Source: a virus. Taken from it: a DNA stretch of 22,904 nt. This document shows positions 11,627 through 22,904 of the stretch, in pieces (the stretch's first letter is position 1; every line of letters begins with the position of its first letter). The notes beneath the pieces are model-generated. The model saw nothing but the letters and a program-made list of their open reading frames with translations, was not told the origin of the DNA and did not search any database. The stretch spans positions 1 to 22,904 of the IMG/VR virus record IMGVR_UViG_3300009034_000216. One strand, given 5' to 3'. A program made the translations under genes and the position numbers.

Positions 11627-12262
11627 ATGGCAAATGCGAAACTTAACAACATAATTCTCAACGATTTATGGCCTGGCGCTGTGAATCCAAACCAAGGCGT
11701 TCCTACGAACGGCTGGGACAGTACCGCCGCCGGAAATAGGTCAACAACAGCGATTTATCCGGTGGGTACAAAGATTATGGCCTACCAAGCCGCCGACCCG
11801 AAGGGGTATTACACTATGATATACCTGCGCTTCTTCGAGGGCACTGGTGCGTTGCCGACAACTAACGAAGTCTCGGATGGTTACAATTTCGTGACTATTG
11901 GCGATGCCACTTATGCACCTGATGGGACGAATGTTTGGTGGAACGTGACGAATCACGTCACGATTAGTTGTGGGACTCACGACTGGGCGCCCTTTGCTGT
12001 CGCTTGTACCTCGTTACAAGGTGATGGTACTCTTACCGCTACGGCTACCTCAAATGCCGAATATGGGTGGTTCTGGTGTGGTGGGGTTTGCCCTGACAGT
12101 CTTGTAGGGGCCTTTTCGGGGGATGCCGAATTTACAGGTGTTTGCACCGACAAATCCGGTATTTGCATTATCAACGATGGCTCGCAGGTTTCGATAGGTG
12201 GCTTTACGGCTGGGGACGGCACATGTAACTGCGTGGGCTTCGCAATGGAAACCGCCGCATAA
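11627..12262 (+). CDS. putative capsid decoration / structural protein, 211 aa
   Basis: A good AAAGGA site lies 9 bases before the ATG, and the gene follows the coat gene by 38 bases. The protein is beta-rich, with aromatic and small residues and eight cysteines, several in the C-terminal half (GWFWCGGVCPDS, CTDKSGICIIND, GTCNCVGF). The fold appears to be a beta-sandwich; Cys pairs might stabilise it. Position after the coat gene suggests capsid decoration or stabilisation. Family not recognised. Confidence 0.65.
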   Translation: MANAKLNNIILNDLWPGAVNPNQGVPTNGWDSTAAGNRSTTAIYPVGTKIMAYQAADPKGYYTMIYLRFFEGTGALPTTNEVSDGYNFVTIGDATYAPDGTNVWWNVTNHVTISCGTHDWAPFAVACTSLQGDGTLTATATSNAEYGWFWCGGVCPDSLVGAFSGDAEFTGVCTDKSGICIINDGSQVSIGGFTAGDGTCNCVGFAMETAA

Positions 12263-12656: not shown

Positions 12657-13370
12657 ATGGCTCTTACGGGCGAAGAACTCGTTGACGAAGTAAGAGAACT
12701 TGTCGGTCGCCCTGGCGCTAATGTTGTTGGCGTTATGGATGATACACGCGCTACGCGCTGGCTCAATAAGGCACAGCGCGTAATTGCCGAACAGTGTCCC
12801 GGCCTTCACTCGCTGACCTTTAAGAATACAACGTCTATTGATACGACACAAAGCCTTCAATATGCGATTGCCGATATTACCGTTGGGGACATATCCGTCG
12901 AAGACCAGGTGTGTCATATATGGAATGTCGCTTATCTTGATGGCAATGAGTCAGTCGAACTGATTTTCGTTCACACCGATAGATTTGATGAGCTACATCC
13001 AGACCCGACCCACTCAGATTATTCACCTGACAAACCCACACATTGGACTCGCCGAGGAAATTACATAGAGATTTATCCTTTATGCGCGTGTGCGTATTGC
13101 GATAAAGACCTTCGCTTCGATGGGGGATATTACCCAGGCGACTTCACAACCAATGATGCTACTGCAAGCGATATAAGTCAAGCGGACGAAGGTTTGATAG
13201 CATACGGTGTTTGGAATGCGTGGAAAGCTATAGGAGCGGGCAAGCCAGCATTGCTTGGTAACATCTTAACGGCCAAGCAGGAGTTTCAGGATTGGCTTGA
13301 CGAGTTCCAGGACCACAACGATATTCTTCACGAGTGGGATGGCAACATTTATGGTGCGGTCATCGACTGA
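12657..13370 (+). CDS. head-tail adaptor / connector protein (putative)
   Basis: Predicted 237-aa protein with AAAGGGAAAG ahead of its ATG. It opens LTGEELVDEVRELVGR, then DDTRATRWLNKAQRVIAEQCP, the two-helix start shared by phage adaptor (head-completion) proteins. The middle is strand-rich, and the C-terminal part is helical with WNAWKAIG and KQEFQDWLDEFQD. These proteins bind under the portal. Its end overlaps the start of the sugar-synthase gene by 20 bases, which fuses the head module and the carbohydrate cassette into one run of genes. The call is by pattern and position. Confidence 0.65.
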   Translation: MALTGEELVDEVRELVGRPGANVVGVMDDTRATRWLNKAQRVIAEQCPGLHSLTFKNTTSIDTTQSLQYAIADITVGDISVEDQVCHIWNVAYLDGNESVELIFVHTDRFDELHPDPTHSDYSPDKPTHWTRRGNYIEIYPLCACAYCDKDLRFDGGYYPGDFTTNDATASDISQADEGLIAYGVWNAWKAIGAGKPALLGNILTAKQEFQDWLDEFQDHNDILHEWDGNIYGAVID

Positions 13371-14196
13371 GATAGTCGCTGAGATAGGTGCGAATCACCA
13401 TCAGTCGTATCAGCGGGCTGTGGCGCTTATTTACACGGCCAAAAGAGTCGGCGCTGATGCTGTTAAGATTCAGATGTTCACGCCGGATTCTTTAACGATA
13501 GAATCCGACAAGGATATGTTCAGGATTAAAACCGGTCAGTGGGCAGGTCGCCAACTGTACGAATTATATAAAGAAGCGTGCCTGCCCTACGACTGGGTTC
13601 CTGAATTGAAGAAAATCGCCGAATCGGAAGATTTGGGCTTTATAGTCTCGGTATATGACCTTGAAACAGTCGATATTTGCGAAGAAATCGGAGTTTCTCG
13701 GTACAAAATAGCCAGTTTTGAAATAAATTACGAAAACCTGATAAAAAAGATTGACAATCTCCAGAAACCACTTATAGTATCTACTGGTTCGGCCACCTTT
13801 AAGGATATAGAATCGGTCGTGAATATAGTGAGAAGGAACAATTTGACGTTACTCAAGTGCACTTCGGCGTATCCCGCCTCTTTGGATTCTATGAATCTTC
13901 GGACAATCCCCGCGATGGCACACAGATTCAAGGTTCCAGTAGGTCTCTCCGACCACAGCCTTGGTATTGTCTCTGCCGTTACGGCGATAGGTCTTGGCGC
14001 GGTGATGATTGAGAAGCACCTGACCTTAGATGGTAAAGGTCTTGATGCAAGTTTTTCGATTATGCCGGATGTGTTCCATAGAATGGTTACAACAATTCGA
14101 GCAACCGAGCAGGTATTGGGAGAGGTTGACTACGGTGGGTCTAAGACGTTTCATCGCAAGCAAGTCGGCGATAAATTTGTGAGGGTAGCGTGGTAG
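13351..14196 (+). CDS. pseI: PseI/NeuB-type nonulosonic acid synthase, lacking SAF domain
   Basis: Predicted 281-aa enzyme; this family condenses a 6-carbon sugar with phosphoenolpyruvate to make a 9-carbon sialic-acid-like sugar. Motifs: EIGANH (11-16), AKRVGADAVKIQ (30-41), KIASFE (119-124), STG (144-146), LLKCTSAYPAS (167-177), GLSDH (198-202) and EKH (221-223). His202 and His223 are spaced like the metal ligands of NeuB. The segment FRIKTGQWAGRQLYELYKEA matches the pseudaminic acid synthase (PseI) subtype better than NeuB. The family is normally about 340 aa with a C-terminal SAF domain; here the protein stops after the barrel. The start at 13351 lies within the adaptor gene with a weak ribosome site. 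Pse rather than Neu/Leg specificity is an inference. Confidence 0.85.
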   Translation: MVRSSTEIVAEIGANHHQSYQRAVALIYTAKRVGADAVKIQMFTPDSLTIESDKDMFRIKTGQWAGRQLYELYKEACLPYDWVPELKKIAESEDLGFIVSVYDLETVDICEEIGVSRYKIASFEINYENLIKKIDNLQKPLIVSTGSATFKDIESVVNIVRRNNLTLLKCTSAYPASLDSMNLRTIPAMAHRFKVPVGLSDHSLGIVSAVTAIGLGAVMIEKHLTLDGKGLDASFSIMPDVFHRMVTTIRATEQVLGEVDYGGSKTFHRKQVGDKFVRVAW

Positions 14197-14402
14197 AAGG
14201 TACTTATACTCTAAACGATATAAAGAATCCCATTATCCGTTTTCTTGCAAGACTCGGATGTGCTGTTTTTGTTCCAGTTGTGTTGGGGCGTGCCTATCTT
14301 CTTGTTGTATTTATTCTGGTTTTTGTTTTTCCTTTTTTTTGGTTATGGCGAAAAGTGTTTGGTAAATATCCATTTGGTTTAAGAATAAACGGGAAGCGAT
14401 AA
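14190..14402 (+). CDS. small membrane protein, 70 aa
   Basis: GTG start at 14190 overlapping the synthase stop, with GAGGG just upstream. The middle is a long hydrophobic run (about residues 22-53, interrupted by one Arg) suggesting one or two membrane passes, with a basic C-terminal tail (RKVFGKYPFGLRINGKR). It does not resemble the missing SAF domain in any frame. Family unknown; possibly a membrane anchor for cassette enzymes or an unrelated small phage membrane protein. Confidence 0.55.
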   Translation: MVEGTYTLNDIKNPIIRFLARLGCAVFVPVVLGRAYLLVVFILVFVFPFFWLWRKVFGKYPFGLRINGKR

Positions 14403-14417
14403 ATTCGTGAGGATAAT

Positions 14418-14618
14418 ATGGCAAATCCTCTTAAAGAAGCCTTTGATAAAATAGATATGCAGATTCGTTACTATAAAGAACCTACAATCGGTGCAGTATC
14501 CGATTTTGACAAGGGAGTTCATAGGGGAAGATTTGATGGGCTTCACATAGCTGCGGGAATTATGAAGACCGGCATTTTGGAATTATTACAACAGGTACGC
14601 AAATCGGATGTTGAATAA
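14418..14618 (+). CDS. small hypothetical protein, 66 aa
   Basis: Begins MANPLKEAFDKIDMQ with GAGGA upstream. Mostly helical and charged with no cysteines or membrane segment; includes DKGVHRGRFDGLHIAAGIM. Its end overlaps the dehydratase gene by 11 bases, so the two are coupled. Not recognised. Confidence 0.55.
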   Translation: MANPLKEAFDKIDMQIRYYKEPTIGAVSDFDKGVHRGRFDGLHIAAGIMKTGILELLQQVRKSDVE

Positions 14619-15450
14619 TAAATACATCCTAATCACTGGTGGAAGTGGCAGTTTGGGCCACGCTTTGGTCGAGCGGATATGCTCGGAGTACAAGCTGGCG
14701 AAAGTCATTATTTTCTCGCGGGACGAATACAAGCAGTCTTTGATGCAGAAACAATATGATTACGAATGTCTGCGATACTTTATAGGGGATGTTCGAGATT
14801 TGCAGCGGCTCAAGCAGGTATGCAGGAATATTGATGTTGTAATCCACGCGGCGGCGCTAAAGCAAATACCAACACTTGAGTACAACCCTACCGAAGCCGT
14901 GCGAACCAATGTTGACGGCACGAGAAATGTTATTGAGGCGTGTACGGAGAACAGCGTCCAAAAGGCCGTTTTGATTTCCACTGATAAAGCAGTCAATCCC
15001 ATAAATCTTTATGGTGCTACGAAACTGTGTGCTGAGAAAATGTTTCTCGCCGCGAACAACTTTAATAAGACGCAGTTTTCAGTAGTCAGGTATGGTAACG
15101 TTCTGAACTCTCGCGGTTCGGTAGTCGAGAAATTCCTGAAATTAAAGGAACAGGGAATTAGAGAGTTCCCGATTACTGATATGCGAATGACTCGTTTCTG
15201 GATTACTTTGGCCGATGCGGCGGACTTAGTCTTGGATGCAATAAACGGCAACGGAGAAATGTTAATACCGAAATTGCCGTCAATGAGGATTAGCGAAGTT
15301 GCCAGGGCGATAGAGCCTGATTGTGCATTCAAAGAGATTGGTATACGTCCTGGGGAGAAATTACACGAAGCCTTGGACGAGGGGTATACGAGCGATAAGA
15401 ATGATTTATGGCTTAGTGTTGAAGCGTTGAGAAGGAAAATAGGAATATGA
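14608..15450 (+). CDS. pseB: PseB-type UDP-GlcNAc 4,6-dehydratase
   Basis: Predicted 280-aa short-chain dehydrogenase/reductase of the FlaA1/PseB group, which converts UDP-GlcNAc to a 4-keto-6-deoxy sugar, the first step of pseudaminic acid synthesis. NAD(P) site GGSGSLG (11-17); IFSRDEYKQ (35-43); FIGDVRDLQRLK (58-69); HAAALKQIP (80-88); catalytic STDKAVNPINLYGATK (124-139) with Asp126, Lys127, Tyr135 and Lys139; then RYGNVLNSRGS and MRMTRFWIT; and GIRPGEKLHEAL near the end. Spacing of the catalytic residues matches the H. pylori enzyme with a constant offset. It is about 50 aa shorter than typical PseB (about 333 aa), the missing part being at the C-terminus. The polysaccharide-dehydratase subgroup is clear; the exact stereochemistry is inferred. 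Confidence 0.9.
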   Translation: MLNNKYILITGGSGSLGHALVERICSEYKLAKVIIFSRDEYKQSLMQKQYDYECLRYFIGDVRDLQRLKQVCRNIDVVIHAAALKQIPTLEYNPTEAVRTNVDGTRNVIEACTENSVQKAVLISTDKAVNPINLYGATKLCAEKMFLAANNFNKTQFSVVRYGNVLNSRGSVVEKFLKLKEQGIREFPITDMRMTRFWITLADAADLVLDAINGNGEMLIPKLPSMRISEVARAIEPDCAFKEIGIRPGEKLHEALDEGYTSDKNDLWLSVEALRRKIGI

Positions 15451-16118
15451 GTATATTTTCACGCCTTGCAATTGGGACAGCTAACTGGGGAAAACCTTAT
15501 GGCCTCTCCGGCAAGCAAGTCTCCGAAGATGACCAAAAGAGGATTCTCGATTACTGCCAGTCTGGCGGAATTGATATGATAGATACCGCAACGGCCTACG
15601 GCTGGGATTGGAGCGAAATTTCTACATATTTTAATGTAGTTACGAAGGGCAATGGTACTGATAAATTCTCCAGGCAAGCCTATGCGTATTTAGCACATAG
15701 CGGCGTTGTGTGGCAACCATTTTGGCTTAAAGTGGTGGCCTCGGAAGCCGGAAAGATCGGCTTGTCCATTTATGAACTAAAACAAATGCCAAAGCACGAT
15801 GAACATACACCGGAAATTATACAAGTACCATATTCAATTTATGATAGACGGTTTGAGTCGTATTTTCCGACATTCAAAGCGCAACATACTGAAATCCACG
15901 TCCGGTCTATCTTGTTGCAGGGCAAGCTTTTAGAGAAATTCTCGCCGCAGGATTGTATATCATTCTGCTTGATGAATCCTTATGTGGACAGAGTGATAAT
16001 CGGCGCTGATTCTTATGACCAATTCAAAGGCAACCTTAGATTTCTGCATCGAATGAACTCCGCACAAATTCACGATGAGAACATACTCGACCCAAGAAAA
16101 TGGAAACACAACAATTAA
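15447..16118 (+). CDS. compact aldo/keto reductase
   Basis: Predicted 223-aa protein in ATGA overlap with pseB. It starts LAIGTANWGKPYGLSG, the usual AKR opening, and carries DTATAYG (Asp46, Tyr51), VVTKG (Lys67) and YLAHSG (His83), a plausible full catalytic tetrad in a shortened arrangement. Later IIQVPYSIYDRR, HVRSILLQGKL and VDRVIIGADS match the family's C-terminal strands and cofactor-binding part. The normal family length is about 280-330 aa, so it is a compact member. AKRs of this subgroup occur in surface-sugar gene clusters, but the reaction is not fixed; reduction of a keto-sugar intermediate is a guess. Confidence 0.8.
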   Translation: MSIFSRLAIGTANWGKPYGLSGKQVSEDDQKRILDYCQSGGIDMIDTATAYGWDWSEISTYFNVVTKGNGTDKFSRQAYAYLAHSGVVWQPFWLKVVASEAGKIGLSIYELKQMPKHDEHTPEIIQVPYSIYDRRFESYFPTFKAQHTEIHVRSILLQGKLLEKFSPQDCISFCLMNPYVDRVIIGADSYDQFKGNLRFLHRMNSAQIHDENILDPRKWKHNN

Positions 16119-16270
16119 ATATACAACAAGATTTGGCTAAATGTTGGCAATGTGCGCGATTTGAGGGAAATATTGTTTCAGGCAATTACCAATATTCTAT
16201 TTATTGTGGTTTATACTCTCGCTCAAAAGCAACTTGTAAATTTGTAGAAGTTAAGCGAAATGAGGAATAA
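16100..16270 (+). CDS. small Cys-rich protein, 56 aa
   Basis: Overlaps the end of the reductase gene. It reads METQQLNIQQDLAKCWQC, then a hydrophobic-polar middle and two later cysteines (YCG and ATCKF), giving a CxxC-x-C-x-C arrangement. The same layout occurs in the 64-aa protein encoded before the aminotransferase, so these may be related metal-binding miniature proteins. Too short for secure family assignment. Confidence 0.5.
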   Translation: METQQLNIQQDLAKCWQCARFEGNIVSGNYQYSIYCGLYSRSKATCKFVEVKRNEE

Positions 16271-16274
16271 TGAA

Positions 16275-16346
16275 ATGACCCATATTATTGGGATATTGCT
16301 TATCATAACCTTTATACTTTCATTGTATTATCAGAACCAAAAATAG
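16275..16346 (+). CDS. possible 23-aa membrane peptide
   Basis: ATG at 16275 with GAGG 9 bases upstream. The peptide is a single hydrophobic helix (IIGILLIITFILSLYY) with a short polar tail. It fills the gap between two coupled genes. Its size makes chance possible. Confidence 0.4.
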   Translation: MTHIIGILLIITFILSLYYQNQK

Positions 16347-16355
16347 CCCAAGAAA

Positions 16356-16505
16356 ATGGCAGGGACATTGAAAATGGCTTATTGGAATCCATTCAAAGAA
16401 ATGTGGTGCAATCGAGAGCAAGATTGGCCTTGGATTGTTCTGTTTTTATTACTCTTTACAATGCTTGGCATTTCAATAGCACGGTTGGTGATATATATAA
16501 TATGA
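16356..16505 (+). CDS. small single-pass membrane protein, 49 aa
   Basis: Open frame starting MAGTLKMAYWNPFKEMW, then WIVLFLLLFTMLGISIARL, a clear membrane helix, ending at TGA inside the ATGA that starts the next gene. A second in-frame ATG at 16374 is possible. The start has no strong ribosome site. The tight overlap downstream supports it. It may be one of a set of tiny membrane proteins in this cassette; function unknown. Confidence 0.5.
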   Translation: MAGTLKMAYWNPFKEMWCNREQDWPWIVLFLLLFTMLGISIARLVIYII

Positions 16506-17098
16506 GAAAGAAAGTAGCAATCATCGGTAACGGCTTGACGCGAAAGCACGCTCCCTACGAGGACGATTCTTGGGATATATGGGGCCTGAACGAAATCGAG
16601 CAGCCTCGTGTGGATGTCTGGTTCGAGATGCACCCGATAGAAGTGCAAAGCGAGCGGGAATTGAAATGGCTAAAGAGGTGCAAGAAGCCGATTTATATGC
16701 TCGAAAAGTACGAAAGTATCCCCAAGAGCTACTCTTATCCGCTCGAAGAAGTCCTAAAGGTTCCGGGTGCAAGAGACTATTTTACTTGCACCTTTGCTTA
16801 TCAAATAGCCTTAGCGTTGCATCTTACCTATGAGGAAATCGGCCTTTGGGGGATGCAACTTGCCAACGGGACAGCACGTGAGCAGACGGTGGAAAGAATG
16901 TGTGTCGAATGGTGGCTTGGCTTGGCCATAGGAAAAGGCGTCAAGGTAACAACGGCAGATAAGTTTATGCGGCACAATTATCATTACGGTTACGATTACT
17001 ATGATGAGATGTACGATGTGATTACTATGCTGACGGCCTTGCAATATAGAGGTATGTGGGTACGAAAGGAAATGATAGGCACAGGAGATGTTGAATGA
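16502..17098 (+). CDS. Rossmann-like phage protein, 198 aa
   Basis: Starts MRKKVAIIGNGLTRKHAP, a nucleotide-binding-like beta strand and GNG loop, followed by WDIWGLNE, VDVWFEMHP and later YFTCTFAYQIALALHL and IGLWGMQLA. I recognise this pattern (GNG-x-R..AP, WGLNE, WFEMHP, a YFT-S/C-T-AY motif, then a conserved Gly-Met) as a recurrent tailed-phage family of unknown activity; it looks like a Rossmann-type fold that could bind a nucleotide or nucleotide sugar. The upstream longer reading frame from 16382 is not used because the ATGA coupling to the preceding membrane gene favours 16502. Confidence 0.7.
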   Translation: MRKKVAIIGNGLTRKHAPYEDDSWDIWGLNEIEQPRVDVWFEMHPIEVQSERELKWLKRCKKPIYMLEKYESIPKSYSYPLEEVLKVPGARDYFTCTFAYQIALALHLTYEEIGLWGMQLANGTAREQTVERMCVEWWLGLAIGKGVKVTTADKFMRHNYHYGYDYYDEMYDVITMLTALQYRGMWVRKEMIGTGDVE

Positions 17099-17289
17099 AT
17101 ATTTGGCGAAAATTTATTGCGTGGTTTCGCAATAGAAAGAAAGTGTGTGGTCGCTGTAAATTCTATCGCGGTTCAACTATTTATTCCTGTGCCAAACTTG
17201 CTGGCGTTGGGGAATGTGGTGAATCTGGTTGCACGGTAATGGCAGGAGCTAAGATAGCAAGAATTTGCCATAGTTATAAGGAAGAGTAA
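17095..17289 (+). CDS. small Cys-rich protein, 64 aa
   Basis: ATGA overlap with the preceding gene; GGAG upstream. A basic, amphipathic start (MNIWRKFIAWFRNRKKV) precedes seven further residues of interest: CGRC, YSC, GEC, SGC and ICH, six cysteines in about 40 residues. The arrangement suggests metal binding, zinc or an Fe-S site. The first 12 residues could peripherally bind membrane. It abuts the aminotransferase gene. Function unknown. Confidence 0.6.
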   Translation: MNIWRKFIAWFRNRKKVCGRCKFYRGSTIYSCAKLAGVGECGESGCTVMAGAKIARICHSYKEE

Positions 17290-18537
17290 ATGAATGACTG
17301 GAGTAAAACTTGCCAATTCGTACCCGATGGTGTCCAGACTCTCTCGAAGATGCCCTCGAAACACGTAGAAGGCGTCTATCCGAAGTACATCGAAAAAGGC
17401 GATGGTGCTTATGTTTGGGCCGATGATGGCAAGAAATATATCGACTTCCCCTGCGGGCTCGGAGCGGTACTCTTGGGATATAACCATCCTGTCATCAACG
17501 AGGCTATCCGAGACCAACTTGGAAAGGGGGTACTGTTTAGCTTGCCGAACTACTCGGAGACGGAACTTGCTGAAAAAATCTGCAATATTATCCCATCTGC
17601 GGAAATGATTCGATTCGTCAAGACGGGGAGCGAAGCGACTACGGCGGCGGTTAGGATTGCCAGGGCCTATACAGGCAAACCTACGATTATGTGTTGTGGG
17701 TATCACGGCTGGCACGACTGGTATAACTGGACGACTCCTAAACACAAAGGAGTCTTGAAACAGAATGTCGCTCAGTTTACCTACAATAACTATGTTCAAA
17801 TCGAGCAGGCATTTCACAGGCGTAATATCGCCGCTGTGATTATGGAGCCGTATATTTTAGAAGAACCGAAAGACGATTTTCTCCGTAAGGTGCGAAAATT
17901 ATGCAGCCAACACAAAGCAGTTCTCATTTTCGATGAGATTATCACGGGCTTTCGGACTCTTGAAAAATCGGCGCAGAAGTATTTTGGAATTGAGCCGGAC
18001 TTAACTTGTCTTGGCAAGGCTCTTGGCAACGGACTTCCTATCGGTGCGGTTTGCGGACAGGCGGATTTGATGAAAGAACTTGAAGGGGACTGTTTTGTCT
18101 CATCGACTTTCGGGGGAGAATTATTGTCTATTGCCGCCGCTTTGGCGACCCTTAAACTTATCGAGGAACAGGGCGTAATTCGCCATATATGGACACAGGG
18201 CGAACGACTTAAGAACGCCTTTAATTCTATGGTTCAGAGTATGAGACTCGGTGACGAGATAAAGTGCATAGGCTACCCGCCCCGCACTTTCTTTATCTTT
18301 CCAAACGAAGCGTTGAAGTCGTTATTCTGGCAGGAATGTTTGGGGATGGGAGTTCTTTTCGGCTATGCGCAGTTTATCAATTTCAGCCACCGCCACGCCG
18401 AAATAGACACGACAATAAGGGCTATGAGGCGCGGACTGGAGATGGTCAGGAAATACAAAGAACATCCGTTGGATGGGTTGAGAGGCAAGCCCGCAGAGGA
18501 GACTTTTAGGTTAGTAGCAGAGAAGGCAAGCGTCTAA
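17290..18537 (+). CDS. class-III PLP aminotransferase (glutamate-1-semialdehyde aminomutase-like)
   Basis: Predicted 415-aa PLP enzyme in the fold-type I, class III group. Phosphate-binding TGSEAT (112-117), YHGWHDWY (138-145), the PLP-nitrogen Asp in LIFDEIITGF (Asp215), the Schiff-base Lys in LGKALGNGLP (Lys243) and the loop STFGGE are all present, so it should be active. The family ranges from heme-precursor aminomutase to sugar and lipid aminotransferases. Its position among PseB, PseI, acetyltransferase and SpsF homologues suggests amination of a keto sugar, the role usually held by the DegT-type PseC; HemL-like enzymes also occur in nonulosonic acid and flagellin-glycan clusters. A classical heme role is unlikely here. 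The exact substrate is inferred. Confidence 0.85.
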   Translation: MNDWSKTCQFVPDGVQTLSKMPSKHVEGVYPKYIEKGDGAYVWADDGKKYIDFPCGLGAVLLGYNHPVINEAIRDQLGKGVLFSLPNYSETELAEKICNIIPSAEMIRFVKTGSEATTAAVRIARAYTGKPTIMCCGYHGWHDWYNWTTPKHKGVLKQNVAQFTYNNYVQIEQAFHRRNIAAVIMEPYILEEPKDDFLRKVRKLCSQHKAVLIFDEIITGFRTLEKSAQKYFGIEPDLTCLGKALGNGLPIGAVCGQADLMKELEGDCFVSSTFGGELLSIAAALATLKLIEEQGVIRHIWTQGERLKNAFNSMVQSMRLGDEIKCIGYPPRTFFIFPNEALKSLFWQECLGMGVLFGYAQFINFSHRHAEIDTTIRAMRRGLEMVRKYKEHPLDGLRGKPAEETFRLVAEKASV

Positions 18538-18719
18538 TGTTTGAATCGCTCCTACAAGCAATGACATTTGGCAAGGTCATTAAACAAAATGACAAAGAAT
18601 ATAGCGTACTACACAGCTTGCCCGATGGATGGTATTTGGTTATTGAATCGAAAGACAAGAGAGCCAAACTGCCCGCACCGGCATTGCTTATAAAAGAGGA
18701 AGAAACAGATGAGACTTGA
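18537..18719 (+). CDS. small hypothetical protein, 60 aa
   Basis: TAATG overlap with the aminotransferase gene. It reads MFESLLQAMTFGKVIKQNDKEYSV with a strand-rich middle (DGWYLVIESKD) and an acidic end, and its last 11 bases overlap the acetyltransferase gene. No cysteines or membrane segment. Not recognised. Confidence 0.55.
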   Translation: MFESLLQAMTFGKVIKQNDKEYSVLHSLPDGWYLVIESKDKRAKLPAPALLIKEEETDET

Positions 18720-19221
18720 GGCATTAAGCCAGGAGCAATGTGAAGTCGTTCGGCAGTGGCGAAACGAGGACATTTCTCACTTGCGCACGCCGTATTTGCT
18801 AACTGCCCCGATGCAGGAACAGTTTTTCTACGATGTTGTCTCACATCGCAAATCCATACATAGATATTGGGCAGTAATGGATAAAGTATTTTTAGCTATA
18901 GGCGGCATAACTAATATCCAATGGGAGAACCGAATAGGTGAAATTAGCTTACTCATTGCCCCTAAACTGCGGATGCAAGGATACGGGCCACAGATAGTTG
19001 ATTTGCTTCTTAGTGATGCCTTCAACCGCCTGAATCTCCAGACGGTTCACGGTGAATGTTATTGGAACAATGAGAAAGGTATTGTATTTTGGGGTAAAAT
19101 AGTAAACAAATACAATGGTTTTGAAATCCCCTTGCCCAAACGGAAATTTTGGAATGGTCAATATTATAATGGTCAGTATTTTTCGATAGATGCAAATGAC
19201 TTTAGAAAAGTAGGGAAATAG
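18709..19221 (+). CDS. GNAT acetyltransferase, PseH-like
   Basis: Predicted 170-aa GNAT-fold protein. It starts with an Rx-rich first helix (CEVVRQWRNEDISHLR), common to the RimJ/PseH group, then the strands GGITNIQWENRIGEISLLI and the acetyl-CoA phosphate loop RMQGYG (88-93), then LNLQTVHGECYWNN and KYNGFE. The length is typical of PseH (about 170-180 aa). In the Pse pathway this step acetylates the 4-amino sugar formed by dehydratase and aminotransferase, and both of these genes are close by. AGAGGA precedes the ATG. PseH function is an inference from context; other small-molecule substrates are possible. Confidence 0.75.
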   Translation: MRLEALSQEQCEVVRQWRNEDISHLRTPYLLTAPMQEQFFYDVVSHRKSIHRYWAVMDKVFLAIGGITNIQWENRIGEISLLIAPKLRMQGYGPQIVDLLLSDAFNRLNLQTVHGECYWNNEKGIVFWGKIVNKYNGFEIPLPKRKFWNGQYYNGQYFSIDANDFRKVGK

Positions 19222-19223
19222 TA

Positions 19224-19733
19224 ATGTCCAAACATATTTCTTTGACACAAGGTAAAGTCGCCATAGTTGATGATGACGATTATGAGTGGCTTAGTCAATG
19301 GAAATGGTATGCTTATAAAGGTGCTCTCTCTTGGTATGCTGCGCGCAATGTACAAAGAGAAAGGGGTACACAAAGACAAATACGAATCACAATGCACAGA
19401 CAAATATTAGGCTTAAAACAAGATGATGGTAAGGAAACAGACCATATCAACAATAAAGGGGTAGATAATAGACGAGCAAATATCCGAATATGCACACACC
19501 AACAGAATTCTTCCAATAAAAAGAAGAGAAGTTGGCATAAGGGGACATTGCCAACTTCGCAATATAAAGGAGTGTGTTGGTCAAAATCTAATCAGAAATG
19601 GCATTCGCAACTTGTCATTAACGGAAAGCACGCACATTTAGGTTTTTATAATGATGAGATTGAGGCAGCGAAAGCCTACAACGATGAGGCAATAAGGCGA
19701 TTTGATAACTTTGCGCAGATTAACGTTATATGA
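19224..19733 (+). CDS. free-standing HNH-AP2 homing endonuclease
   Basis: Predicted 169-aa protein with an HNH nuclease core: MHRQIL, then ETDHINNKGVDNRRANIR (71-88; His74), then HQQNSSNKK, and a C-terminal AP2 DNA-binding domain (SQYKGVCWSKSNQKWHSQL, then HLGFYNDEIEAAKAYNDEA, residues about 112-160). This pair of domains is the hallmark of selfish, free-standing phage homing endonucleases that cut relatives lacking the gene and spread by repair. It sits in frame between the acetyltransferase and FemAB-like genes and keeps tight spacing to both, so it is inserted without breaking the operon. It is probably not part of the sugar pathway. Confidence 0.9.
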   Translation: MSKHISLTQGKVAIVDDDDYEWLSQWKWYAYKGALSWYAARNVQRERGTQRQIRITMHRQILGLKQDDGKETDHINNKGVDNRRANIRICTHQQNSSNKKKRSWHKGTLPTSQYKGVCWSKSNQKWHSQLVINGKHAHLGFYNDEIEAAKAYNDEAIRRFDNFAQINVI

Positions 19734-20530
19734 ATTACAAACTTGAAGAACATACTGCTTTGTATTCGGAACTTGATTGGGAATACAATAATGTGATGTC
19801 GGGTCCGTATGAGAATCTCTCTGTCAGAAGTGATGAAGGAACGATAATTGCTGGCCTGAAAGATGGGATAATCTCTGGTGGATGGCGACCGATGGTCTGC
19901 GTGGGACCAGATAAATTTCAAAAACTTCATATTGAGGCGTTGTATGATATTTGTCGCAATTTTTACTACTTAGACTTTCTTATTGACGGCAAGTTGTCCG
20001 TAATCAGTCAATTTCTTTTGCGGCATGAACATACGGCCCGACCATATTATACGCAGATAATCGACCTGACGAAAACAGAGGAAGAGCTGCACGCAGATTT
20101 ACGTAAATCCTATAAGAGTTTGTGTAATAGTGATGATATAGATAGGCGTTCAACAGTTAATGACCTGAAACTGTTACACAAGAAAAGCAGGGGCGGAAAA
20201 ACACGACCTGATAAGACTTGGGAAATACAACGCGATATGGGCGCGTATGTTGTTATGAACAAGGCCAAAACTGCGGGCATAATGATATATCGTTGGCGAT
20301 ATTATTTATATTATGCCTGTGCAGCTTCAATTGGAGACGCAAAAATCCATCATTTGCTTTGGTATGCGATTTCGGGGACAAAAACTTCTTGGGTAACGAG
20401 TAAATGTACAGGTTTTGAGATGGGTGAACAAGTCTTTTCGGGAGACCAGAAGTTGGTGAATATCAGCAAATTCAAAAGGGGTTTTGGTGGCAGAACAGTA
20501 ACGCGACTTATTCTTGAGAAGAACACATAA
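19730..20530 (+). CDS. FemAB-like / GNAT-type transferase, 266 aa
   Basis: Starts in an ATGA overlap with the endonuclease gene. The middle contains PYYTQIIDLTKTEEELHADL followed by RKSYKSL, matching the FemAB pattern in which an acidic helix is followed by an Arg/Lys-rich helix; later HKKSRGGKTRPDKTWEIQRDM and NISKFKRGFGG. The fold is a double GNAT as in FemA/FemX and the BioF2-like transferases. FemAB enzymes attach amino acids to lipid II; related ones acylate or aminoacylate sugars in surface-glycan clusters. Here it may modify the amino sugar made by the cassette. The exact acyl donor is unknown. Confidence 0.65.
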   Translation: MNYKLEEHTALYSELDWEYNNVMSGPYENLSVRSDEGTIIAGLKDGIISGGWRPMVCVGPDKFQKLHIEALYDICRNFYYLDFLIDGKLSVISQFLLRHEHTARPYYTQIIDLTKTEEELHADLRKSYKSLCNSDDIDRRSTVNDLKLLHKKSRGGKTRPDKTWEIQRDMGAYVVMNKAKTAGIMIYRWRYYLYYACAASIGDAKIHHLLWYAISGTKTSWVTSKCTGFEMGEQVFSGDQKLVNISKFKRGFGGRTVTRLILEKNT

Positions 20531-20949
20531 TGTCAGTATCGAAACAAATGGATATGGATACGTTTATGTCATTTGCTCAGAAGATAGCAGTCAGGCCGCA
20601 GATTGACTGCGAAGGAAAGCATTGTAGCAGAATCAATTTTGATATTACACTGAGTAATTGCTGTACGAATTGTCGCAATACGCGGAAAGAATATATGAAA
20701 AACAATCCGAATCTTGCAGTGTGCTGGACGGATGCGTTTGGATTTATGGGAGCGGCAGGATGCTTGTTGCCGCAAGACCAAATGCCACCAGAATGTCAAG
20801 AGTATGATTGTAAGAATTACGCTCAATTCATTGTACTGGGATTTACGAATAATGAGTGGGCCATCGTCCACTTAAAGGAAATACATATAAGTCAACTATC
20901 GAAGTTGTGGGGACAATACTGCGATTTGTTAAAAATAAAGGGAAACTAA
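20530..20949 (+). CDS. Cys-rich protein, YkgJ-like pattern, 139 aa
   Basis: TAATG overlap on both sides, so coupled to its neighbours. Cysteines at C27 and C32, then CCTNC (44-48), then GCLLPQDQMPPECQEYDC in the C-terminal half. This arrangement resembles YkgJ-type metal-binding (zinc or iron) proteins in which CxxCC precedes GxCPxL..RPxxCR.F.C. A metal-binding or metal-dependent accessory role is possible. Proteins like this can sit next to FemAB-like genes in surface-sugar clusters, but I have no proof of a shared task. Confidence 0.55.
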   Translation: MSVSKQMDMDTFMSFAQKIAVRPQIDCEGKHCSRINFDITLSNCCTNCRNTRKEYMKNNPNLAVCWTDAFGFMGAAGCLLPQDQMPPECQEYDCKNYAQFIVLGFTNNEWAIVHLKEIHISQLSKLWGQYCDLLKIKGN

Positions 20950-22307
20950 TGCCAAAAAAGAAGGTTCTGATATTAACGGCATCTCCGCGTAGAGACAAAC
21001 CAATTGATGAAATGATTGCCAGAGAGCTACGCGGAATGGGAATGATAGTATGGGTGAAGCCGTGCGTCAGGCAAGGCCGGGCGGCTGTATTAAAATATAA
21101 GCCGAACGTTGTCGTCCTTCCGCCAATTCGGCAGGTATATAGTCGGGATTTCGTTGAGCAAATCAAGCGATTTGGCTGCGGCATTGTCTCTCGTCATACC
21201 GAGCCGAGTTGCGATTGGCAGGATTTCAAGGCTATTGATGCGGACCAAAAGAGCAAAATTCTTGGTCAAGTTCCGTATTATGTAGATGTCGAAATCGTGT
21301 GGAGTCAGGATGAGGCTGAAATTCTTAATCGCCGACCCACACAATTTAAGACCGTTCCCGTTGGTTGTTTGGCAGTAGATAAATACCTCGATGATAAAAT
21401 ACGCAAGAAGTACACGAATCGCAGGGGATTTAATCGCAAACACAAGTTTTCCTCAAAGAAAAGAACTATTCTGATTCAATCACCTTGGGGTTTTGCCGAT
21501 AGCGCCCCTGATTTGCGCATTGACGAAACCGAGGCAGCAAGAAAGGATATGGAAGGCCAGAAGCGTCATCTTCAAATGATACGACATTTGAAAGAAAACA
21601 TTGGGAATCATTTCAATATGATAGTGACAATCCACCCCGATTGTATGGAGTCGTTGTATGAAAAAGACCTTAAGGAGTTAGGATTGCCTCTGGACACTAC
21701 AAGCACATCTTTGGAGCTAATGGCGAATTGTGACGTTCTTATCCATTCGGGCTCGACTATGGCGGTTGGCGCTCATTTTCTCAATATGCCCGCCTTTCAA
21801 TTTGGGGACGTGAACCTCAAGGATGCTAAGAGTTGGTGGTCGCGTTCTGGGGAATGGCTCTCGAAGGTCTCGCCGAGGTACGAAAAGATGGACAATCTTA
21901 TGGAGGCGATGGAAGAATACAATCAAGTAAGTGTGCCGTTGAAGTCAAACGCAAACAAAGAGGCGATAGAATACTTAGAAAAAGGTCGCTTTGGCCGAAT
22001 GGACGGCAAGGCAACTGTTCGCACGGCGCAGATAATAGCTGGCGTTAACGGCAAATTTGGGTTGTTTTGGCCTGAATCTGGGCGAGATTACAGCCAGTTG
22101 ACGATTTTGAAAGACTTGTCGACGCTTGTAAACCAAGCGTTATGCCCGATATGCAAGAAGAAATTTTACATCATCAAGGATGAATGGGTCAGTATGTTAG
22201 CAAAGAGAATAGATGCCAAGGCTAAAATGCTGACTTTGAAACACGGTAGATGCTGCCCGAATTGCGGGACGCGATATTTTTCAGATACTTTTAAGCCTCT
22301 GGAATGA
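20949..22307 (+). CDS. surface carbohydrate biosynthesis protein (GT-B-like) with C-terminal zinc ribbon
   Basis: Predicted 452-aa protein whose start at 20949 lies in TAATG overlap; upstream in-frame starts would intrude into the preceding gene. The N-terminal part starts KKKVLILTASPRRD (a Rossmann-like strand) and has VVVLPPIRQVYS. Later IQSPWGFADSAP and the signature NCDVLIHSGSTMAVGAHFL (about 260-278) resemble capsule/surface carbohydrate proteins that look like GT-B glycosyltransferases or UDP-sugar epimerases. The end has two CxxC pairs, CPIC (399-402) and CPNC (436-439), an unusual fused zinc ribbon. Candidate role: using or handling the activated sugar. No PseG N-terminal motif is visible, so it is not clearly the missing hydrolase. 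Confidence 0.65.
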   Translation: MPKKKVLILTASPRRDKPIDEMIARELRGMGMIVWVKPCVRQGRAAVLKYKPNVVVLPPIRQVYSRDFVEQIKRFGCGIVSRHTEPSCDWQDFKAIDADQKSKILGQVPYYVDVEIVWSQDEAEILNRRPTQFKTVPVGCLAVDKYLDDKIRKKYTNRRGFNRKHKFSSKKRTILIQSPWGFADSAPDLRIDETEAARKDMEGQKRHLQMIRHLKENIGNHFNMIVTIHPDCMESLYEKDLKELGLPLDTTSTSLELMANCDVLIHSGSTMAVGAHFLNMPAFQFGDVNLKDAKSWWSRSGEWLSKVSPRYEKMDNLMEAMEEYNQVSVPLKSNANKEAIEYLEKGRFGRMDGKATVRTAQIIAGVNGKFGLFWPESGRDYSQLTILKDLSTLVNQALCPICKKKFYIIKDEWVSMLAKRIDAKAKMLTLKHGRCCPNCGTRYFSDTFKPLE

Positions 22308-22904
22308 CGAAATATCCAAGAGTAGTAGCGATAATCCAGGCCCGATTGGGCAGTAAGCGCTTGCCCAATAAGGTCTTATTGCAAATACCGCCCAAGAGCG
22401 GAGTAACGTGTTTGGGCAGGGTTATCGAGAGACTGAAGAACTGCACGAGTTTGGACCATATTGTTTTGACTACACCGGACAAGCAATTGGACGAAATAAT
22501 TTCACTCGAACAGCGCGTTTCTAAGCATCTTTGGTTTGGGGAGCGTGATGTATTAGCGGAATATATGTCGGCAGCCGACCATCCCCAAGTTGATATTATC
22601 GTACGCATTACCGCCGACTGCCCTCTTATTGACGCCGAAATTGTTGATAAAATGGTGGATGAATTCCTTGACAGTAACGTAGATATTGTATATAATACCC
22701 GCTGGCCTGATATGACCGGCGACGGTCTTGATGTCGAAGTGTTCAGCAAAGAGGCTCTTAAAACGGCATTTATGGCAGCGAAAGCTAAAGATGAGCGGGA
22801 ACACGTAACGCTTTATATGAGAAGGAATATGAAAGGTAAGTTCATACCGACGCCGGAAGGCTTTGAAGGTTGCAGCCTTGATACGTGGGACGATTATCAA
22901 AAGA
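22304..22904 (+). CDS. spsF: SpsF-type cytidylyltransferase (3' partial)
   Basis: ATGA overlap with the preceding gene; the frame runs off the window after 200 codons. Nucleotidyltransferase motif AIIQARLGSKRLPNKVLL (9-26), then RITADCPLIDAEIVDK (101-116), DGLDVEVFS (140-148) and EREHVT (164-169). This is the SpsF family, typically annotated as spore-coat polysaccharide cytidylyltransferase; in nonulosonic acid clusters homologues are taken to make the CMP-activated sugar. About 240-250 aa is usual, so the C-terminal fifth lies outside. It closes the pathway in this window. A PseF or legionaminic-type specificity cannot be told. Confidence 0.85.
   Translation, partial: MTKYPRVVAIIQARLGSKRLPNKVLLQIPPKSGVTCLGRVIERLKNCTSLDHIVLTTPDKQLDEIISLEQRVSKHLWFGERDVLAEYMSAADHPQVDIIVRITADCPLIDAEIVDKMVDEFLDSNVDIVYNTRWPDMTGDGLDVEVFSKEALKTAFMAAKAKDEREHVTLYMRRNMKGKFIPTPEGFEGCSLDTWDDYQK

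Follow-up and report, generated by a model that had tools for sequence, protein, structure and literature searches.

Why would a tailed phage carry, among the genes for its own particle, a set of enzymes resembling those of bacterial pseudaminic acid synthesis, and on what would the resulting sugar be placed? The question is raised by a fragment of about 22.9 kb, the IMG/VR virus record IMGVR_UViG_3300009034_000216, whose entry has 22,905 bases (positions 1 to 22,904; the whole stretch is called the window here). Its left part encodes a head and packaging module, recognised in profile searches as small (TerS) and large (TerL) terminase subunits, portal, scaffold-like protein and major capsid protein (MCP), and its right end falls inside a cassette of sugar genes. 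It is rather probable, though far from assured, that this cassette belongs to a lineage-defining late-operon module for the synthesis and attachment of a nonulosonic sugar of the pseudaminic acid type, a virion surface protein being the likeliest acceptor. A sequence-only reading of the window had proposed a pseudaminic-acid-like module, its enzyme classes lying on one strand in tight overlaps directly after virion genes, and this description holds: from position 13351 to the contig end all genes are open frames on the + strand without internal stops, most of the 15 adjacent gene pairs, counted from the adaptor gene, overlap by 1-20 bases (largest gap 380 bases), and profile searches, in which matches of window proteins reach E-values of 1e-90 and lower, far past chance, place the enzymes in nonulosonic-acid-type families (Table 1).

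The module is found well beyond the window. A search with the synthase NeuB returned three larger contigs that share the head genes and cassette order of the window, in all of which the cassette is followed by further genes of the virion operon, namely the fibre-like T1, which contains a bactofilin-like repeat stretch, and T2, whose product matches a virion structural family; tail genes had indeed been suggested as something to look for downstream. NeuB-based scans, and those based on the class-III aminotransferase (AT3), select for cassette genes, and the MCP search alone is blind to them, its queries coming from cassette-bearing contigs; it returned 19 loci, 12 of which extend past the adaptor gene, and NeuB comes next in 12/12, one being cut after the first codons. 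In total, 19 other contigs, which are fragmentary and metagenomic and include some near-duplicates from related metagenomes, form one lineage with the window, and in 12 of them virion genes flank the cassette on both sides, which excludes an accident of assembly and bears out the contiguity of cassette and phage genes. A core of NeuB, PseB, AT3, the GNAT acetyltransferase, the FemX-type protein (FemAB), the GT-B glycosyltransferase (GT1060) and the cytidylyltransferase (CT), which is complete in the relatives and followed there by T1 and T2, is present in all sufficiently long contigs; the aldo/keto reductase (AKR), a formyltransferase, a PIG-L deacetylase, g16499 and HNH endonucleases vary among contigs.

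For the core cassette proteins, pairwise identity is correlated with that of the portal (r 0.77-0.93 in Mantel tests, with p <= 0.0035 by permutation) as closely as it is for the adaptor (r 0.86), the divergence of the AKR being out of step (r 0.42 against the portal, -0.11 against the MCP). In the PseB tree the lineage is a single clade (support of 88 in the SH-like approximate likelihood ratio test), and in the AT3 tree it forms one group with the phage-like contig L048, the long branch L029 being placed uncertainly. The divergence of the cassette proteins matches that of the capsid proteins, so the module is inherited with the virion, and this co-divergence, the trees and the kept catalytic residues show a core that is old in these phages and under continued selection. 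That the locus is a chimeric assembly, contaminating host DNA or a functionless island of genes captured on a single occasion, a suspicion that a window stopping within the cassette may invite, is refuted by the co-divergence with the portal and by the shared gene order, and is extremely improbable. L048 (Euryarchaeota archaeon SM23-78, LSSJ01000028) carries Gfo/Idh, CT, PseB, AT3 and an epimerase-like gene, then weakly virion-like genes; it is probably phage DNA mis-binned as euryarchaeal and, being phage-like, was left out of the cellular count. The lineage consists of uncultivated tailed phages whose adaptor is of the podovirus type (SU10-like); no cultured relative was found, as the MCP is without a match in 50,697 isolated-phage records and NeuB has only three weak matches among them. 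A terminase-pattern search of viral contigs gave no relative, the MCP and NeuB alignments succeeding instead.

Against solved structures, the lineage profile of NeuB scores 301 bits with PseI (8h2c), 205 with SpsE and 155 with SiaC/NeuB, so that of the three its TIM barrel lies nearest to PseI, and the window protein stops short of the SAF domain. PseB has the T-(x)9-Y-(x)3-K triad of such dehydratases in 13/13 lineage members (motif T-(x)9-M/Y-(x)3-K, PMC7439481). The GNAT of 10 of 11 lineage members matches the PseH profile, the window protein itself reaching 37 bits where the cut-off is 93. The AKR has its PF00248 match but, as a correction to the sequence-only reading, turns out to be a shortened, poorly conserved accessory. 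FemAB is predicted from its AlphaFold model (predicted local distance difference test, pLDDT, 92), a twin-GNAT Fem fold, to be an aminoacyl-tRNA-dependent aminoacyltransferase: it superposes on FemX 6snr with Z 19.2 and a root-mean-square deviation of 3.6 over 256 residues, and is equally close (Z 19) to the aminoacyl-tRNA-dependent Sba18/Sbb17, whose entries show them complexed with streptothrisamine, a sugar antibiotic, so that an amino-sugar acceptor is plausible. CT reaches 23.7 bits with PseF (cut-off 205.7) and belongs to a different subfamily within CTP_transf_3. AT3 has glutamate-1-semialdehyde aminomutases as its nearest solved structures, and among its 80 nearest homologues in GTDB genomes NeuB lies close by in 66 and a CT-type gene in 69, which ties its family to nonulosonic-acid-type clusters. 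In Bacteroidota/Ignavibacteriota (L054, which was read, and most of L049-L127), AT3 also occurs in a CT-transketolase-AT3-SDR-HAD phosphatase-NeuB cluster, possibly an uncharacterised ulosonic acid pathway.

GT1060 is a candidate CMP-nonulosonate transferase. All 10 of 10 lineage members match the family NF046086 (BFO_1060), the window protein over its full length with 82 bits (cut-off 200), and its model (pLDDT 80) has a GT-B fold with Z 18-20 over about 310 residues. In Tannerella, GtfS, a GT-B protein from a pse cluster, is the transferase for a derivative of pseudaminic acid (PMC6388019, PMC6120980), and the SpsB/TagB similarity of such transferases is on record (PMC6388019, PMC6120980, PMC7439481). 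A first scan of genome contigs for GT1060 gave nothing because its patterns derived from four phage sequences; a family search then found bacterial BFO_1060 proteins, and in five bacterial genomes one scoring above the cut-off adjoins a pseB whose product is 56-57% identical to the window PseB.

From gene content, order, conservation and co-inheritance, the two modelled folds, the PseB motif and the absence of PseC and PseG, we infer the substrates, step order, product and acceptor of the following route. The PseB-like enzyme would convert host UDP-N-acetylglucosamine (UDP-GlcNAc) into a 4-keto-6-deoxy-AltNAc nucleotide sugar, AT3 would aminate C4, standing in for PseC, and the new amine would be acylated by the GNAT, by the FemX-like enzyme with an amino acid taken from aminoacyl-tRNA, or by both. 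UDP would be removed by a host activity or by the GT-B protein, the SAF-less PseI would condense the hexose with phosphoenolpyruvate, the SpsF-like enzyme would yield the CMP sugar, and its transfer would fall to the GT-B protein or, in contigs that have it, to g16499. Such a pathway would be expressed late, its product would be CMP-activated, N-acylated and probably N-aminoacylated, and its target would be reachable from the cytoplasm. The fuller proposal, that the lineage carries, in the core of its virion operon, its own aminoacylated pseudaminic-type route, in which AT3 replaces PseC, the synthase is SAF-less and PseG is absent, and that it glycosylates its particles with the product, is quite possible, if short of probable.

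Several observations weigh against this route. Every window enzyme falls below the curated NCBIfam cut-off for the Pse protein whose name it bears, and the SAF domain was not found in the NeuB of four lineage members besides the window, although it is found in the NeuB of L019, from another phage, and of the bacterial L163. Neither the DegT-fold aminotransferase PseC nor the UDP-sugar hydrolase PseG has a match in any of 12 phage records, six of them of 37-52 kb, and both profiles match in controls (G009 and G010 for PseC; G010, with 1e-40, for PseG). The sequence-only reading, which had named PseG alone as not seen and suggested looking for it downstream, thus understated the gap: PseG does not simply follow further along, canonical PseC is absent too, and a class-III aminotransferase occupies its place. 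Moreover, L051 and L168, two cellular clusters, have a DegT-type PseC as well as AT3, and the closest folds to the GT1060 model include UDP-GlcNAc 2-epimerases (Z 18-20) and NeuC (18.6), tied with TarL/TagF (about 18), in a comparison that does not tell epimerase from transferase and speaks only to the families it lists. AT3 may have a different job in L051 and L168, which calls for caution over its part as a PseC substitute. It could instead, together with an AKR-type oxidoreductase, aminate another carbon while the host supplies PseC and PseG activity, which is possible though doubtful: cellular AT3 clusters do contain a dehydrogenase (Gfo/Idh or SDR), at times beside PseC, and AT3 and PseC matches occur together in 24 viral loci, but two lineage contigs (B37 and 22539_112) are without an AKR match, and PseB, PseI and CT are kept, although a Pse-making host would supply them. 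With these three retained and both PseC and PseG absent throughout, replacement explains the set more economically than a Pse-making host does, and we infer that AT3 is the natural candidate for PseC. The tied folds and the lack of any other PseG also allow the GT-B protein to be the missing UDP-sugar hydrolase (PseG/NeuC-like), transfer being left to the host or to g16499, whose profile matches only sialyltransferases in the PDB, if weakly. This is quite unlikely, as in L163 the BFO_1060-family homologue stands by a separate PseG in a full pse operon (GT-PseB-PseC-PseG-PseH-PseI-CT), TagF is the sole PDB sequence match of the GT1060 profile, and g16499 is present in just 4/20 lineage contigs; of the two motifs of bacterial sialyltransferases (PMC6388019), HP is invariant in GT1060, though D/E-D/E-G is found in only 1/10 members.

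Among the uses that the sequence-only reading had proposed (a virion coat, an altered host surface or a restored receptor), genomic position and co-inheritance favour the virion. A virion surface protein is the likeliest acceptor because the genes lie between the adaptor and the fibre-like and other tail genes, co-evolve with the capsid under strict co-inheritance, and come without an integrase. The main rival has the same pathway place its sugar on lipopolysaccharide, capsule or another surface glycan of the host late in infection, blocking superinfection or keeping progeny from adhering to debris. The resemblance of the glycosyltransferase to surface-carbohydrate proteins (TIGR04396) speaks for such a host target, but the module is embedded among the virion genes of the operon, its divergence follows that of the capsid proteins, and Phage_integrase has no match in the 12 phage records, which makes lysogenic conversion less likely; all in all, a host glycan as the target appears somewhat unlikely. 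Nothing resembling a flippase, a polymerase or a large membrane protein was noticed in the cassette of the window. A gene for a decoration-like protein (11627-12262), with up to four diverged copies in relatives (L036, L027, L030), lies directly after that of the MCP, and its product is a candidate surface-exposed acceptor.

As for g16499, the only PDB matches of its profile are nine sialyltransferase sequences (E 0.07-0.17), and a Pfam GT42 search of 296 genomes gave too few matches for a comparison alignment. Its family ('KKVAIIGNG.. / SAPSS.R.APY..') is common among phage contigs bearing nonulosonic acid genes (L199, L202, L212, L223, L229, L232 and others). A role as the dedicated transferase of the cassette is weakened by the homologues in L212 and L229, which adjoin terminase genes and not NeuB, and by the isolated Microcystis phage PP496355, which carries a homologue, annotated as a type 11 methyltransferase, and no other cassette match. 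The family is possibly an unrecognised phage glycosyltransferase family.

Table 1. Genes of the window from the adaptor to the contig end, with the match or source behind each assignment
Feature	Position	Strand	Basis
Head-tail adaptor gene	12657..13370	+	Homologue L028:12243-12944 matches SU10_adaptor PF24175, 4.7e-10; 3' end overlaps neuB
neuB/pseI-like nonulosonic acid synthase, SAF-less	13351..14196	+	Pfam NeuB 2.4e-73; PseI 305 bits (cut-off 340)
Small open reading frame (ORF) with hydrophobic stretch	14190..14402	+	ORF list; no family matched in profile search
Small ORF	14418..14618	+	ORF list
pseB-like UDP-GlcNAc 4,6-dehydratase/5-epimerase, C-terminally short	14608..15450	+	PseB 383 bits (equivalog cut-off 408)
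AKR, shortened aldo/keto-reductase-like protein, accessory	15447..16118	+	PF00248 3.7e-10 over 51 residues
g16499, weakly GT42 sialyltransferase-like, accessory	16499..17098	+	Nine weak PDB matches
Small cysteine-containing ORF	17095..17289	+	ORF list
AT3, class-III (GSA-aminomutase-like) aminotransferase	17290..18537	+	PF00202 (Aminotran_3) 1.9e-55
Small ORF	18537..18719	+	ORF list
GNAT acetyltransferase, PseH-like	18709..19221	+	Acetyltransf_3 PF13302 1e-7
HNH/AP2 endonuclease (homing type), operon insertion	19224..19733	+	HNH_3 4e-4, AP2 5e-4
FemAB, FemX-type aminoacyltransferase (predicted)	19730..20530	+	AlphaFold model, Fem fold
g20530, cysteine-rich protein	20530..20949	+	Homologues recur at cassette edges
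GT1060, BFO_1060/surf_polysacc-type GT-B glycosyltransferase	20949..22307	+	NF046086 3e-23
CT, SpsF/CTP_transf_3-type cytidylyltransferase, cut by contig end	22304..22904	+	PF02348 2.2e-22

The SAF-less state of NeuB, the HNH/AP2 endonuclease at 19224, the small ORFs and g16499 go beyond what the sequence-only reading had described. The endonuclease has a homologue elsewhere in contig A45, and HNH-type endonuclease genes occur at varying sites in or beside the cassette (in the window, at L044:12710-13333 and at L040:6141-6701); such enzymes may drive cassette shuffling. The gene g20530 also changes place, lying between FemAB and GT1060 in the window and between adaptor and neuB in relatives (L023, L026, L029, L042). 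Small proteins with Tat-like (twin-arginine) N-termini, odd for a phage, are encoded at 945-1304 in the window and at 23643-23963 in A45 (L011:3643-3963) (MRRRSVLKALLASPLGF; MKRRDFLKLIGIAPIAPSV).

Other uncultivated phages (L018, L019, L198-L239) carry a second type of cassette, composed of PseB, a short PseC (about 200-230 aa), PseF, a methyltransferase-like protein, a WbuX amidotransferase and NeuB, which in L019 lies directly before a terminase-small-subunit-like gene. Unlike the cassette of the window, it keeps the short PseC and PseF and, in L019, the SAF domain, and it shows no GT1060 or FemAB match in the stretches examined; it is apparently independent and belongs to another lineage. 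Scans of viral contigs gave 130 matches to the NeuB profile, not all of them checked singly, and 71 to AT3; many come from other phages with the enzymes of the second type, and contigs outside the lineage of the window were classed by tblastn only, some being possibly mis-sorted cellular DNA. Nonulosonic-acid cassettes thus seem to recur among phages, in the form of at least two enzyme sets, and to be widespread in the uncultivated ones. A literature search found no paper on nonulosonic acid pathways in virion operons, preprints and most subscription papers lying outside it, which is weak evidence of novelty.

Nonulosonic acids are regarded as sugars of cellular life. With a pathway of several genes fixed in a phage lineage and passed on together with the capsid, a virus would be producing a sialic-acid-like sugar of its own and, if the proposal is true, encoding the synthesis of a virion coat of this kind. 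It would then become possible to test directly whether virions are glycosylated with nonulosonic acids. Additionally, the enzyme set would offer a short alternative route, with AT3 for PseC and a PseI that lacks SAF, would supply new candidates for CMP-nonulosonate transferases, and may include a Fem-type enzyme that aminoacylates a nonulosonic acid.

Among known systems, the canonical PseBCHGIF pathway (Campylobacter, Helicobacter and the pse cluster of Tannerella) resembles the phage module in its PseB-, PseH- and PseI-like enzymes and cytidylyltransferase beside a transferase-like GT-B protein, whereas the phage module has no PseC or PseG, a class-III aminotransferase instead, a SAF-less NeuB, an SpsF-type and not a PseF-type cytidylyltransferase, an added FemX-like enzyme and a phage location. 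GtfS of Tannerella forsythia and the BFO_1060 family NF046086 share with GT1060 the position beside pse genes, the GT-B fold, the HP motif and TagB/TagF likeness, but the phage members score about 82 bits where the cut-off is 200, and membership of GtfS in NF046086 is not confirmed. In the epaA-epaB genes of an Acinetobacter prophage (8-epi-pseudaminic acid), phage genes likewise act on a nonulosonic acid, but they modify a capsule sugar made by the host, whereas the lineage described here has a near-complete pathway in its virion operon. The glycosylation of mycobacteriophage virions is not known to involve nonulosonic acids. Its likeness to the lineage of the window lies in phage-encoded glycosylation enzymes, which in the mycobacteriophages reportedly are likely to decorate the particle (Freeman et al. 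2023, as cited in PMC12619734).

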